64,000 nt of DNA from Pegea sp. RAD2-039 (taxonomy: Eukaryota > Chordata > Thaliacea > Salpida > Salpidae), in NCBI GenBank assembly GCA_034620365.1, contig JAQGEQ010000091.1, forward strand, positions 186,001-250,000, read 5' to 3'. Below, piece by piece: positions 3,488 through 61,049 of this stretch. The notes below the pieces were generated by a model, which had not been told where the DNA came from, did no database searches, and was given only the letters and a program-made list of their open reading frames with translations. Within the stretch, counting starts at the first letter, position 1; every line of letters begins with the position of its first letter. Position numbers and translations under genes: made by a program.

Positions 3488-5496
3488 CAATAAGTCCAGA
3501 AATAGAATAAAACTTAAGTTTAAAGATCATAAAAAGCTAAAAATATAAAACTAGGAACAAAGTGTTAAATAATAAATAAGAAAAAATAAAATACCAAACA
3601 TTTTGATACATTGAGAGATTCCCTATAAAAGCATATTTACAAAAAATATGCATTGGTTTAATCAAGTGGTATTTTAAGCGCTTGATATAGCAGTAAACAT
3701 GACTTGTTGTATATTACTATTAGTTTATATTAATAAATTAATTGTAGATGCAAACTTAAGTTATTTTAAATGGTTGAATAAGAAAATTAAATCCATAAAT
3801 TTATGACAAAATTCAAACTTTTATTGGAAATTAATTAATTTTGTTTTTTTGTATGTTTTAGTGACTAAAATTAATTCATTTTATTTCCTGATCAAATATT
3901 TAACGTCCATGATAATAGTAATTTAACTTAATTACTTTTATATTTCAGTTAGTTGACTATTTGTAGTTATCTTTTTAAAATAATAATTTATAAGTAAGAA
4001 AAAAATACATTTGAAATTATAAATAAAATAACAAACTTATCATCAACCATTCAAAAGTATATTTTATTTTAAAACTATATCTGTAACCCATACCAACAAA
4101 ACTGAAAAGTAACATAACTGTAAGGGAATTTCCCTTAAATAAAAAATTAATAAATATTTACAATAAACATAAAATTACATCTTCAAGATCAGCTAGCTCA
4201 AAAGACTCATTTCAAGAAGCTTAAAAAACTGTTTTAAATAATTCATCCTCTGTTCCATATTAAAATGAATAATTCTAAAGCTTTTCTAGAATAATTTGTC
4301 TACAATCTATTCAATTTGTTATACTTTACATTTCACTCCATTATTTGAGTGGTTTAAAAATAAAATGAAGTTATAGAGATTAAAAAAATTAATAAGTGAA
4401 ATGAGATTTATAACAAACTACCTTTGTTTAAAGGTAATAATTTAATTTAGAGAATAGTACTTTATAATGTAATATTTATAGTAAAATGAGTAAAAGTTTG
4501 AGTATACAACAAAAGTTCTTGACTCATGTGACTTTATTTATCTTGTACAGTTGGATTTAAAACTTTTAAGCTTATATGCACGCATATGATAAGTAACATT
4601 CTAAGTATAAAGCTGTTTGTTTTTTATTAAGTTTAACAATAGCAAAAAGTTAATAAAATCTTAAGGCAAAAATCCTTAAAAACAGTTTCTTGGAATTTTT
4701 TAAAAAGTACTAACAGTTTTTCATCAAAATCTTTTTCTGAACTGTCTTTATTTTTTGGCTTACATAATTGACAGCTAAATTTCTGAATTCACCACTCAAT
4801 CAGAATTAAAAACTAAATAACTTTTATGTTCACATACTCTTTCAACTCAACGAGTAATTTCAGGAAGTTTTTATAATTTTTGAAGGGTATACAATCTTAA
4901 AGATTTATAAACAAATGTTTTATTATTTGTCTTTCAAGTAAACACCAGAAAATTGTTTTATACATCATTAAAGGTGCTACATGATATTATTTTGCTTTTT
5001 TATTCTTACATGACACATATGTTAATAACTTATCTCTCAAGTTTATCTACTGCACATTAATTAATTTTTAAAATCTTAAAAACGATCCTTAGAGCTTACG
5101 AGTCTAAAATATAATTTGTGGGAGAGTTTAAAGTTTATTTGAATCGTGAAATTAGTTGGACTAATCTATATTTCAGTTTGTATTTTACTCATGTGCAGAT
5201 GACAATTTTCGTTTATTCCTTTTAAATAGAAAAACCAACAAAACCTTTTGTACCTAGAAAAATCTCATTCCCATTGAAAACAAAATTAAAGACCACAAAA
5301 ATCAAACTTTAATGTTAAGCATCAAAAGTCTATCATACATCTAACTAAAGAGAATTAGATGAAGTAGAAAACAAGTTCCCCAAAACTTAGATAAAAATCA
5401 AAACTTATTATTACATTAATTTCGACATTAAAAGTAACCAGATGTCAGAAAAAGTTTGACGTTTGCTTTTATCGTCAAGAATGTTGAAGAAAACAT
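3488..5496. other. Intergenic, no gene seen
   Basis: AT-rich sequence between the profilin-4-like start and the 3' end of eIF1A. It probably includes the eIF1A 3' UTR and the promoter of the downstream gene. No coding exon, RNA gene or recognisable mobile element was seen. Confidence 0.5.
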
Positions 5497-23895: not shown

Positions 23896-24346
23896 ACATA
23901 GACCTAAAAAAATACATTTTATTCACCTTACATCTATTCACCTAAACAGTTTTTACAATTTCATTTTTTCTGAGATTTTACTTTAACATTTAGAAAAAGG
24001 TAAAAAACATGTAAAGTTAACAAGAAATAAAATTACAAATTAGAAAGTAAAAATAAAACTCTACAAAACTGCTGTGAACAATTAAACAAATTAGTAACAT
24101 TCATTGATTAAAAACTGCAAAGCATAAACAAATTAAACAAAAAGGGAACTAAATTAATAGAGACTTTGAAAAACCACTTTATTAGCATGCTTTTCGAAAT
24201 CAGTCAAACGTCACGAGTAGAATGCTTAGCTTTTAAATGAACTATGCAAAAGCTATTTTTTCTTAAGTAATTGTGTGACTATTCTGTATCTATTCAAGAT
24301 TGGCTTCAGCCTAAATATTCTTAAAATTTTATTTTCTCTGTTTGAA

Positions 24347-24877
<531 letters not shown>

Positions 24878-25418
24878 CAATAAATGCGAAGGAGGGTGCC
24901 TAAGGAGAGCACCTCTCGCTAACACACATTCTCACAAATTAGATCTATTTGACGTGTAAACGAAAAAGCATATGACAATGAAGAATTGCACAGAATCATA
25001 GTATTGTAAAAGAGAAAAATTCACAGTTTAGAAATGGCAATGTTGGCGATATTATAACAATTCAGCTTTTTCTTCAACAGCATAAGTGATTTTGACATGA
25101 CAATCTCTGATGGCTGATTGTTCCATGTACTGATTGTGCGGTATGAGAAAAAACTTAATCTGGTTAACGCAGCTGGTGGAGTGGGCTTATTAAGATGTAA
25201 TTTATGTCTTCTAAGTTGATATAACTTGAGGGAGGGACTAATAGAGAAAAAGTCATCAAACTGAAGATCAATTAGGTTGTGAATAATTTTAAAAATCAGA
25301 ATAAGGTCGTATTTAATTCTTCGGATTTCCAAAGTATCTAGATTGAAGAAGCTGAGACGATGCTTATAACTCTCGTATTTGATATCAAGTTTCCTGCAAA
25401 CCAATCTCGTAATAAATT
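24878..25418 (-). mobile_element. 5'-truncated LINE (Jockey/CR1 group), reverse transcriptase C-terminus
   Basis: A minus-strand frame from about 25418 to 25021 encodes the end of a non-LTR retrotransposon RT: FITRLVCRKLDI, then FFNLDTLEIRRIKYDLILIF, then LRRHKLHLNKP, FFSYRTISTWNNQPSEIV and a final FKxxL-like segment. This matches the conserved C-terminal domain after the RT thumb in Jockey/CR1-type elements. A 3' UTR of about 140 bp follows, ending in the conserved GTTAGCGAGAGGTGCTCTCC region, then the TAAA tail array. The frame is intact, so this copy is relatively young, but it lacks endonuclease and RT core and cannot move by itself. Confidence 0.85.
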
Positions 25419-57241: not shown

Positions 57242-58339
57242 ATGAAGTGTATACGCTGTGGTACTGGACGAGTTTTGATAAAACGTTCTAGAAATGGAGA
57301 CAAAGTTTGCAAAGAATGTTTTTTTCTGTTGTTTGAAACTGATGTTCATAAAGTTATTACTGAATTTAATCTTTTTAAGCGTGGAGAGGTAGTTGCAATT
57401 GGTGTTTCAGGTGGTAAAGACTCTACAGTTTTAGCTCATATATTAGATACACTTAATAGACGATATGATTATGGTCTTGATCTTCGTCTTCTTTCAATTG
57501 ATGAGGGCATAACAGGCTATAGAGATGATTCATTGGAGACTGTTAAAAGAAATGAAACTGAATATGGTTTACCACTTACCATTTTATCTTACCAGGATCT
57601 TTATGGGTGGACTATGGATTCAATTGTTAAGCAAATTGGGAAAAAGAATAATTGTACATTCTGTGGTGTTTTTAGACGCCAGGCATTAGACCGTGGTGCT
57701 AAATTTATTAAAGCAAATAAAGTTGTGACTGGTCATAATGCTGATGATGTGGCTGAGACAGTGATTATGAATATTATGAGAGGAGACGTTGCTCGCTTAA
57801 AGAGATGTACTTCAATTATCACTGGAGATGACCCAACTGGTATTCCACGTGTTAAGCCTTTAAAATATGCTTATGAAAAAGAAATTGTTTCTTATGCTCA
57901 TCATAAAAAACTTGATTATTTTTCAACTGAATGTATTTATTCACCTGAAGCTTATAGAGGTAATGTCAGAAATTATATAAAAAATCTTGAAGCTATAAGA
58001 CCTAGGGCAATCATGGACATTATTCATTCTGGTGAAAATATGGTTATTGAGAAAGGTGTTAAGCTTCCAAAGCTAATGAATTGTGTTAGATGTGATTATA
58101 TTTCTTCTAATGAAGTTTGTAAGGCTTGTGTTTTATTAGAAGGCTTAAATAAAGGTATGGCAAAAGTAGGTGTTGGAAAAACAAGCAAAATTAAAAAGTC
58201 TTTGATAAATCATGAAGAACTTCAAAAGAAGTATGAATCCCTAAAAATTCTTGATGAAAAAATTAAAGAAAGAAAGAATAATGTTGGATGTAATAATTCT
58301 AATAAAGTTTGTTGTGGTTCTGGTCGCTGTAGATCATAA
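57242..58339 (+). CDS. CTU1: Cytoplasmic tRNA 2-thiolation protein 1 (365 aa)
   Basis: CTU1 (NCS6/ATPBD3) adenylates and thiolates U34 of tRNA Lys, Glu and Gln with CTU2, using sulfur relayed by URM1. It is a single exon; human is 348 aa. The N-terminal zinc site uses C3, C6, C23 and C26. The ATP-pyrophosphatase PP-loop SGGKDS spans 56-61. Two of the catalytic/cluster cysteines are C138 and C141 in [15 protein letters not shown], and the third is C231 in [18 protein letters not shown] second zinc-ribbon lies at C281/C284 and C293/C296. The C-terminus ends in a Cys/Asn-rich tail ([12 protein letters not shown]). EEF1E1 begins only 162 bp downstream on the same strand; no AATAAA is present between them. 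Confidence 0.97.
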
Positions 58340-58501: not shown

Positions 58502-58972
58502 ATGAATGTTTTTCAAAAAGAGGTAGAAGAAGTAGGTTCAATGCTAAATGTTGAAAAGCAAAGTTTTATGTTGGATGCTAAAACTTCTATAAGTCATTAT
58601 TCTAGTGCTCTTGTAAAGTTAGCCATGGCATGTAAGGATTATGAGGCCTTAGATGGAAAAAGTGCTGAAGATAAAGCTTTTATCTGGCAATGGCTAGAGA
58701 TAAGATCTCAAATTGAAGAAACTGATCTGTTGCAACTATTACAAAAGTTGAATAAAGATTTACTTTTGAAAGTTTTTTTAGTTGGCAACCAATTGACGGT
58801 TGTTGACTTTGCAATGTTTTGTGCTGTCAAGTCTTTGTGGCTATCTCTTTGTCATTTTGATAAGCATGAAACATTTTGTAATGTTTCGAGATGGCTTGCT
58901 CACATTCAACAGTTTAACAAACAAGCTAATAGCTTTAATTTATTAGTTTCCAAAAGTAATTCTTATTACTAA
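58502..58972 (+). CDS. EEF1E1: AIMP3/EEF1E1, multisynthetase complex factor (156 aa)
   Basis: A non-catalytic scaffold protein of the aminoacyl-tRNA synthetase complex with a GST-like fold; it binds methionyl-tRNA synthetase in animals. Single exon. The C-terminal GST domain shows the most similarity: EDKAFIWQWLEIRSQI, equivalent to the family's EEKAIVQQWLEYRVTQV, then LLQKLNKDLLLKVFLVGNQL, equivalent to LLKDLNSYLEDKVYLTGYNF, then TVVDFAMFCAV and NVSRWLAHIQQF. The N-terminal thioredoxin-like half is short and poorly conserved. Human EEF1E1 is 174 aa. It sits between two other plus-strand genes, and both CTU1 and EEF1E1 serve tRNA function, so co-expression is plausible. An AATAAA occurs about 35 nt after the stop. 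Confidence 0.88.
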   Translation: MNVFQKEVEEVGSMLNVEKQSFMLDAKTSISHYSSALVKLAMACKDYEALDGKSAEDKAFIWQWLEIRSQIEETDLLQLLQKLNKDLLLKVFLVGNQLTVVDFAMFCAVKSLWLSLCHFDKHETFCNVSRWLAHIQQFNKQANSFNLLVSKSNSYY

Positions 58973-59308: not shown

Positions 59309-60644
59309 ATGGCATTGTCAAATATTAATATTTTAGCTGCTATTTGCAAATTACTTGTGATCTTGATGGTAAGATTTTTTCTGTTTAATTTATTGCTGAT
59401 TGAATGATTAAGTAAATAGAGTAATAAATATGAGCTGGCATTTATAATTTTTAAATAAACTTTAGATTTATTGTTATTAATAATCATTCCATCTTTATGT
59501 ATGAACAACTAAATCATAGCTAAAAATAAATAAAGCCAAACATTTTTCATACATTAATCATCTTGTAGAAATATATTAATGATAGCAGTAAGCAAATAAT
59601 AAATTTACAAATTACTTTTTCTAGTGCTGCAAAGTTTATTTTCCTTATAACTTAGAATTAATTATTTAGGTTAAAGGAGATGGAATAGATAAAAGTCAAT
59701 GCCTTTCTTTGGGATTTACTCCTGATTTGATATGTAGTTCATGTGACAAGTTATCTGATTTTAACTTAGAAATATTAGAAGATGACTGTAAAAATTGTTG
59801 CCAACCAGATTCTGAAGATGTTGTTGTTAAAGTAAGTTGTTATCATATAATTATTTAACTATACTACTTAAGAAATAACTTTTTGTCATATATAAATTGG
59901 TTTTCAACAAATTATCTTAGCTTAATTGTTTAAATCAACTCACAAGTTATGTTGTTGTAGTGGCCTCATGCCATTTTAGAAATATGTTATTGAGCCTTAC
60001 CAAGGTACCCCTCTGTTAAAGGTAATTTTAGAAGTAGATATATTCTCATATTTGAAGTGCTTTTTACATTCCTACTTAATGTAGTATTTGGTGAAATTAG
60101 TGGTGATGGTAGCTTGCTTATTATTTTTCTAAATATCTTTAGAAATATTCGCATGCTGTACTAGAGGTATGTGGATGAAAGCTTGGACGTTACCCCCAAG
60201 TTCAAGGTATTCAATTAAACGCTTGCCATGTTTTTGTGTGATTATATTTGTAGTTCAGCTGCATTTCACAAAATAAAATCCTTGTTTTGTATTTGCTGAA
60301 ATATTTAATTAAAATTAAGTTTTTGAATTTGAATTCACTTTTATAATATTTTATATCTAGCTTTCATTAAAAGTCATAAAATGAAGTCATTTCCAAATGT
60401 TCAAGTAAAGGTTGGTGTACTCTTTTTCATGTTTCAATTTTAACAATAACTGATAATAGTTTCATTTCAAACTCTAATTACCAACCTCATATAATATTGA
60501 ACATCTTTTTTTCAGTATGTAAGAGGTAAAGATCCTACAGTGCTTCTTCTTGATGAGAATAGAGAAGTCCAAGAAACATTAAGCGTTGAGAAGTGGGACA
60601 CTGATAATATAGAAGAATTTTTCACTGAAAAATTGAAGCTATAA
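59309..60644 (+). CDS. SELENOF: Selenoprotein F (Sep15), in-frame TGA = selenocysteine (154 aa)
   Basis: An ER thioredoxin-like redox protein that binds UGGT and takes part in glycoprotein folding quality control. Exons (plus): 59309-59368, 59670-59831, 60143-60206, 60361-60410 and 60516-60644; all junctions keep frame. Exon 1 is a signal peptide (MALSNINILAAICKLLVILM). Exon 2 is the cysteine-rich UGGT-binding domain: QCLSLGFTPDLICSSCDKL, then FNLEILEDDCKNCC. Exon 3 encodes HAVLEVCG, then TGA at 60176-60178, then KLGRYPQVQ: exactly the family's EVCGUKLGRFPQVQ, with the CxU redox motif at residues 84-86. Exons 4-5 give FPNVQVKYVRGKDPTVLLLD and SVEKWDTDNIEEFFTEKL, as in Sep15. Decoding requires the SECIS found at 60899-60969. 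A naive annotation would truncate the protein or skip exon 3. Confidence 0.95.
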
Positions 60645-60898
60645 GAAATCTTTTCAATTTTAATTCCATCTTACATTTAATTTTTTTAATTTCTTTCCAT
60701 CAAATATCCATTTTTCTTTTGATATTTTCAACAAAATATTTATAAGTACAATTTGTTTCTTAGCTCTTTTTATATCTTACTTTTGCTGTTTTGATATTGG
60801 TTTTGTGGGTACCAATTATTTCGTGAAACGTGTCTCTGGGGGTGAAGCATGTTTACAGCGTTATGGTATCAGAAATTTCTGTGGTCTTTGATGACTTC

Positions 60899-60969
60899 TT
60901 TATCTTAATCTATGATGATTAGCTGTTAAACCAACTCGGAGCAGCTATTTGGATGAAATTTAAGATAAA
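60899..60969 (+). promoter_or_regulatory. SECIS element in SELENOF 3' UTR
   Basis: A stem-loop about 255 nt after the stop fits the eukaryotic SECIS. Helix I: TTTATCTTAA (60899-60908) pairs perfectly with TTAAGATAAA (60960-60969). SECIS core: ATGA at 60912-60915 opposite GGAT at 60951-60954, giving the tandem G.A/A.G pairs. Helix II: TAGCTG (60920-60925) pairs with CAGCTA (60942-60947), with weaker pairs below it. The unpaired AAA (60928-60930) lies in the apical loop 12 nt after ATGA, the conserved spacing. It recruits SBP2 so that the TGA at 60176 is read as selenocysteine. Confidence 0.9.
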
Positions 60970-61043: not shown

Positions 61044-61049
61044 AATAAA
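61044..61049 (+). terminator. Candidate polyadenylation signal for SELENOF
   Basis: AATAAA about 75 nt after the SECIS, in the right place to end the SELENOF mRNA with the SECIS inside. AATAAA is frequent in this AT-rich DNA, so this is suggestive only. Confidence 0.35.

Follow-up and report, generated by a model that had tools for sequence, protein, structure and literature searches.

A predicted Sep15 (SELENOF) selenoprotein gene with a SECIS element in the genome of a probable tunicate

The window analysed here, a whole stretch of 64,000 nucleotides of Pegea DNA, contains a spliced coding sequence with a TGA in frame, which raises the question of whether this codon terminates the protein or specifies selenocysteine (Sec). 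Almost certainly, this is a working gene for the selenoprotein Sep15 (SELENOF), from what is probably a tunicate, and its UGA is predicted to be read as Sec by means of a SECIS element. The exon structure, the UGA codon, a SECIS element and matches to each part of the Sec machinery that was searched can be demonstrated in the DNA itself, and transcription, translation, ER location, the redox role and UGGT binding would be expected by analogy with the known family. Automatic annotation would plausibly misread the TGA of this gene.

The gene model comprises five exons between 59309 and 60644 on the plus strand, and its spliced length of 465 nt encodes 154 residues. All intron ends are GT/AG and the exon junctions are in phase. 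The features of the gene are the following:

59309..59368, plus strand: exon 1, starting at the ATG; donor gtaaga
59670..59831, plus strand: exon 2, with the Cys-rich part CLSLGF...CSSC...CKNCC; acceptor ttatttag, donor gtaagt
60143..60206, plus strand: exon 3, the Sec codon exon, KYSHAVLEVCGUKLGRYPQVQ, from the reading frame
60176..60178, plus strand: in-frame TGA, the Sec codon (residue 86), from the reading frame and the alignment with a Cys of structure 2a4h
60361..60410, plus strand: exon 4; acceptor atatctag, donor gttggt
60516..60644, plus strand: exon 5, with the stop codon TAA at 60642-60644; PF08806 match of 51.4 bits at 60510-60638 in the genome search
61044..61049, plus strand: AATAAA, candidate polyadenylation signal from the motif alone, 75 nt 3' of the SECIS element

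Exon 1 probably encodes a signal peptide, as judged from the hydrophobic N-terminal stretch alone. Exon 2, as read from the sequence, encodes CLSLGFTPDLICSSC...DDCKNCC, a Cys-rich part that may be the region with the UGGT-binding role; an N-terminal Cys-rich UGGT-binding region is part of what defines Sep15/SELENOF. The exon that the initial annotation had placed at 60143-60206, with EVCG-TGA-KLGRYPQVQ, was recovered as described, its TGA at 60176-60178 corresponding to residue 86 of 154.

The assignment to the family is carried by two comparisons in which the query had C in place of Sec. The Pfam domain Sep15_SelM (PF08806) matches residues 79-153 with 111.8 bits (cut-off 26), and the better of two PDB matches is the Sep15 structure 2a4h, presumably from fly, which aligns without gaps over residues 67-151 (1.8e-27, 99.3 bits). 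SelM shares the Pfam domain with Sep15, but its structure 2a2p gives a far weaker match (5.5e-05, 26.3 bits), which places the protein closer to Sep15 than to SelM. At the redox position, where Sec or Cys is expected, this protein is predicted to have Sec, encoded by the TGA within EVCGUKL, whereas 2a4h reads EVCTCKF and has Cys there. The identity proposed for the gene and the reading of its TGA as Sec are supported, in part by the domain score and by this Cys aligned to the Sec codon. The genome holds a single PF08806 place at E ≤ 0.001, out of two candidates scored, and exon-by-exon matching, a procedure that a divergent gene could escape, gave no sign of a further Sep15 or of a SelM. Another relative, Fep15 of fish, is a Sep15-family member according to a cited title; PMC3316567 gives it as detected in vertebrates only.

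Reading UGA as Sec calls for a SECIS element, and a stem-loop of this kind lies 267 nt 3' of the Sep15 stop codon:

60899..60969, plus strand: SECIS element, from its geometry and a match to Rfam SECIS_1 (RF00031) at 60902-60966

Helix I pairs 60899-60908 with 60960-60969 at 10 of 10 positions, and helix II is paired at 9 of 10, two G-U pairs included. In eukaryotic SECIS elements the AA of the loop lies 11-13 nt after ATGA; here ATGA (60912-60915) is followed by 12 nt and then AAA (60928-60930), with GGAT at 60951-60954 on the other side, so that the ATGA/GA core with tandem G.A pairs, the loop AA spacing and helices I and II are all present, as had been described earlier for helix I, ATGA, the 12-nt spacing, AAA and GGAT. 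The distance between the TGA and the element, given then as about 720 nt, holds for genomic DNA but not for the spliced mRNA, in which TGA and ATGA are 474 nt apart.

Against the Rfam SECIS_1 model the element reaches 30.2 bits (461 bases searched with a permissive E-value; E 4.7e-4) and falls short of the gathering score, 35; for this reason, a search of the whole 64-kb window at the gathering threshold returned no Rfam match. That score is strict for the Pegea genome, given that all five other SECIS candidates also fall below it. A SECIS descriptor found one place on the plus strand of the window and none on the minus strand, and none in any of 40 first-order random 64-kb sequences (one strand each); it was drawn up post hoc from the element itself and consequently does no more than back the E-value.

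The initial annotation had further held that the organism keeps the whole Sec machinery, and that absence of tRNA-Sec or eEFSec from the genome would speak against its reading. Both were found in the 105.7-Mb assembly (387 contigs), on contigs C28 and C20, respectively, and the set is completed, in agreement with that claim, by matches for SBP2, SEPSECS and PSTK and for a selenophosphate synthetase (SPS) that includes a Sec exon. The tRNA-Sec at C28:386883-386968 scores 79.1 bits with anticodon TCA and is the one match above the family cut-off among the 38 listed; three of the other 37 (L003-L005) are tRNA-Ser by ARAGORN. L7Ae gave nine genome matches, and two adjacent exons on C6 join into an SBP2-like stretch whose top PDB match is SBP2 (9.1e-38), the runner-up being eL30 (3.5e-5). 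For eEFSec, domain III matched twice on C20 and in none of 14 control genomes, and the tested C20 exon has eEFSec alone as PDB match at E ≤ 0.001 (2 of 2 sequences). SEPSECS is represented by six matches on C1, in a family that was also matched in 3 of the 14 controls, and all six PDB matches of the tested C1 exon are SEPSECS. A frame of 322 aa on C21 has as its top NCBIfam match the eukaryotic PSTK model at 107.3 bits, against a curated cut-off of 382.35; the PSTK and SPS assignments derive from matches below curated cut-offs together with reading of the sequence. These matches support the presence in the assembly of genes for tRNA-Sec, SBP2, eEFSec, SEPSECS, PSTK and SPS with a Sec exon.

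As a separate observation, 14 of the 38 listed tRNA-Sec model matches fall on a 41.7-kb contig (C225; L003, L006-L009), which looks like a tRNA-Ser gene array; L003 on this contig is a tRNA-Ser with anticodon TGA.

Two other explanations of the TGA have to be weighed against this evidence. It is very improbable that the locus is a decayed Sep15 copy with a nonsense mutation: in formal terms a TGA means stop, and the score of the SECIS element lies under the Rfam gathering threshold, but this is the sole PF08806 place of the genome at E ≤ 0.001, the remaining 153 codons are open and the introns have kept GT/AG ends. Moreover, the family matches continue to residues 151-153, beyond the TGA at 86, and this TGA sits at the Sec/Cys position of the family, with a SECIS element 3' of the gene and the machinery present. 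The same element bears on the idea that the TGA is read through with another amino acid and that the stem-loop is coincidental. PMC4561486 indeed discusses readthrough of the SPS UGA with amino acids other than Sec; however, the core elements of the SECIS are complete at E 4.7e-4 within 461 bases, the post hoc descriptor fits none of the 40 random 64-kb sequences, and the genome has tRNA-Sec, SBP2 and eEFSec. We give readthrough as little credence as decay, and retain a functional Sep15 selenoprotein gene as the best explanation.

In such a gene, SBP2 bound to the SECIS element of the 3' UTR would recruit eEFSec with Sec-tRNA(Sec), and Sec would be inserted at the UGA, codon 86 of the mRNA. 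The outcome would be an ER protein whose thioredoxin-like domain bears a CGU redox motif, and this Sep15 probably partners UGGT in glycoprotein quality control.

With regard to the host, a frame on contig C14 matches bacterial cellulose synthase (2e-21), and about 1.5 kb further on, in the same direction, lies a GH6 frame that scores 27.5 bits genome-wide (cut-off 27) and 35 bits when searched alone; we infer that both frames belong to one gene. A cellulose synthase that carries a GH6 domain is a trait of tunicates, and this region probably points to a tunicate host. A rotifer, initially suggested by base composition and genome size, was discarded as a candidate on the strength of this region. 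An 18S gene is present (L038:921-2711), whereas COX1 had no match. The Sep15 gene itself had been expected to help constrain the phylogeny, an expectation that stands insofar as Sec-less lineages are excluded and fails in that the gene hardly places the animal. Its value here is weak because Sep15 with Sec is widespread and reported from Ciona. The taxa abbreviated Aq, Ta, Nv, Lg, Ct and Bf are presumably a sponge, a placozoan, a sea anemone, a limpet, an annelid and amphioxus. Sel15 appears in all six of these invertebrates in Table 1 of PMC3473315, and Table 1 of PMC2874816 includes the 15 kDa selenoprotein (Sel 15) of Ciona intestinalis, a tunicate selenoprotein of the same family. In this regard, there is nothing out of the ordinary about the Pegea Sep15: both its family and this kind of host are known. 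What is gained, for a tunicate-like genome that is compact and AT-rich, is a Sep15 gene with defined limits and a sketch of a functioning Sec system; the value is mainly for annotation, where the Rfam gathering score would lose all six SECIS candidates.

A more unusual locus than Sep15 lies outside the window. The selD model matched the genome at three places, all exon pieces of one locus and all below the cut-off, within C3:2349376-2352599. The analysed stretch, L040, is C3:2346000-2355900 and shows the following features:

L040:3377-3590: SPS exon A, Sec form, GLKGUGCKVP, from sequence reading
L040:3737-3809 and 3874-3990: SPS exons B1 and B2, Ala form, SLHGAACKIP, from sequence reading
L040:4090 onward: SPS exon C, common downstream exon, from sequence reading
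L040:6537-6600: SPS SECIS candidate with a GUGA core (29.2 bits, E 0.0026)

Exons A and B2 have identical phase at their 3' ends, ahead of exon C, and B1-B2-C with the following exon aligns from residue one with selenide, water dikinase 1 in the PDB (4.4e-57). This sole detected SPS locus probably uses alternative 5' exons to produce both a Sec-containing SPS2 and an SPS1-like protein with Ala at the Sec position. According to PMC4561486, the non-Sec SPS isoform of tunicates has Gly; Ciona has one dual gene, Molgula both isoforms, Botryllus and Halocynthia two separate genes, and Oikopleura the Sec form alone. Since dual SPS occurs in ascidians (PMC4561486), the Pegea locus agrees with a tunicate host. 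It differs from the ascidian dual genes in having Ala where their non-Sec form has Gly; if the reading is correct, this would be an ascidian-type dual SPS gene with Ala instead of the Gly described so far, which would suggest that loss of the need for Sec leaves the choice of residue at this site unconstrained. The term SPS1-Ala has no occurrence in the main text of PMC4561486, and a thin check of the literature from 2015 on found no report of an ascidian SPS alternative first exon with Ala. For a selenoprotein specialist, this alternative-exon gene with Ala might be worth pursuing.

Further SECIS candidates came from scanning the genome for SECIS_1 at E ≤ 10, a setting at which 4 of the 14 prokaryote controls also gave matches (none over the cut-off). 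Four places were found, at 30.0, 28.6, 28.3 and 22.1 bits, none over the cut-off. The Sep15 and SPS elements are absent from this listing at E ≤ 10, and the search therefore undercounts and is neither complete nor specific. Three of the four places adjoin in-frame TGAs, namely those of SelN, thioredoxin reductase (TrxR) and SelO. The 30.0-bit place on C52 adjoins a frame with DQSCUGSGRTLR, which we take to be SelN, and the frame neighbouring this Sec frame has no Pfam match; the 28.3-bit place adjoins a thioredoxin reductase C-terminus whose last residues are GCUG, and the 22.1-bit place lies beside the last frame of the SelO gene, which terminates in KISUSS. When the four loci were rescanned at E ≤ 0.05, the SelN and C11 elements alone were recovered, and the TrxR and SelO candidates are accordingly identified by their position. 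A covariance model of the local SECIS elements was considered and dropped, as the MAFFT alignment misplaced the 3' arms. In the SelN gene, a minisatellite-like repeat (L010:439-1428, C52) separates the Sec exon from the SECIS candidate.

The fourth place, a SECIS-like element of 28.6 bits at C11:750135-750197 on the minus strand (L011:1501-1563), lies about 70 nt past a short frame that ends in QQPANKDS-TGA-CAA-TAA, and possibly marks an unrecognised selenoprotein or arises by chance. SelI was considered for it and rejected: CDP-alcohol phosphotransferase has five genome matches at E ≤ 0.1, and the single one on C11 is about 213 kb off.

Elsewhere in the window, a long tetranucleotide repeat at 24275-24959 carries two overlapping open frames with LFIY repeats, which are mechanical ORFs and no gene. 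Just 5' of Sep15 and on the same strand lie a PP-loop/zinc-ribbon protein (57242-58339), presumably CTU1-like, and a GST_C/Arc1p-like protein (58502-58972), presumably EEF1E1-like, the three genes being tightly spaced.
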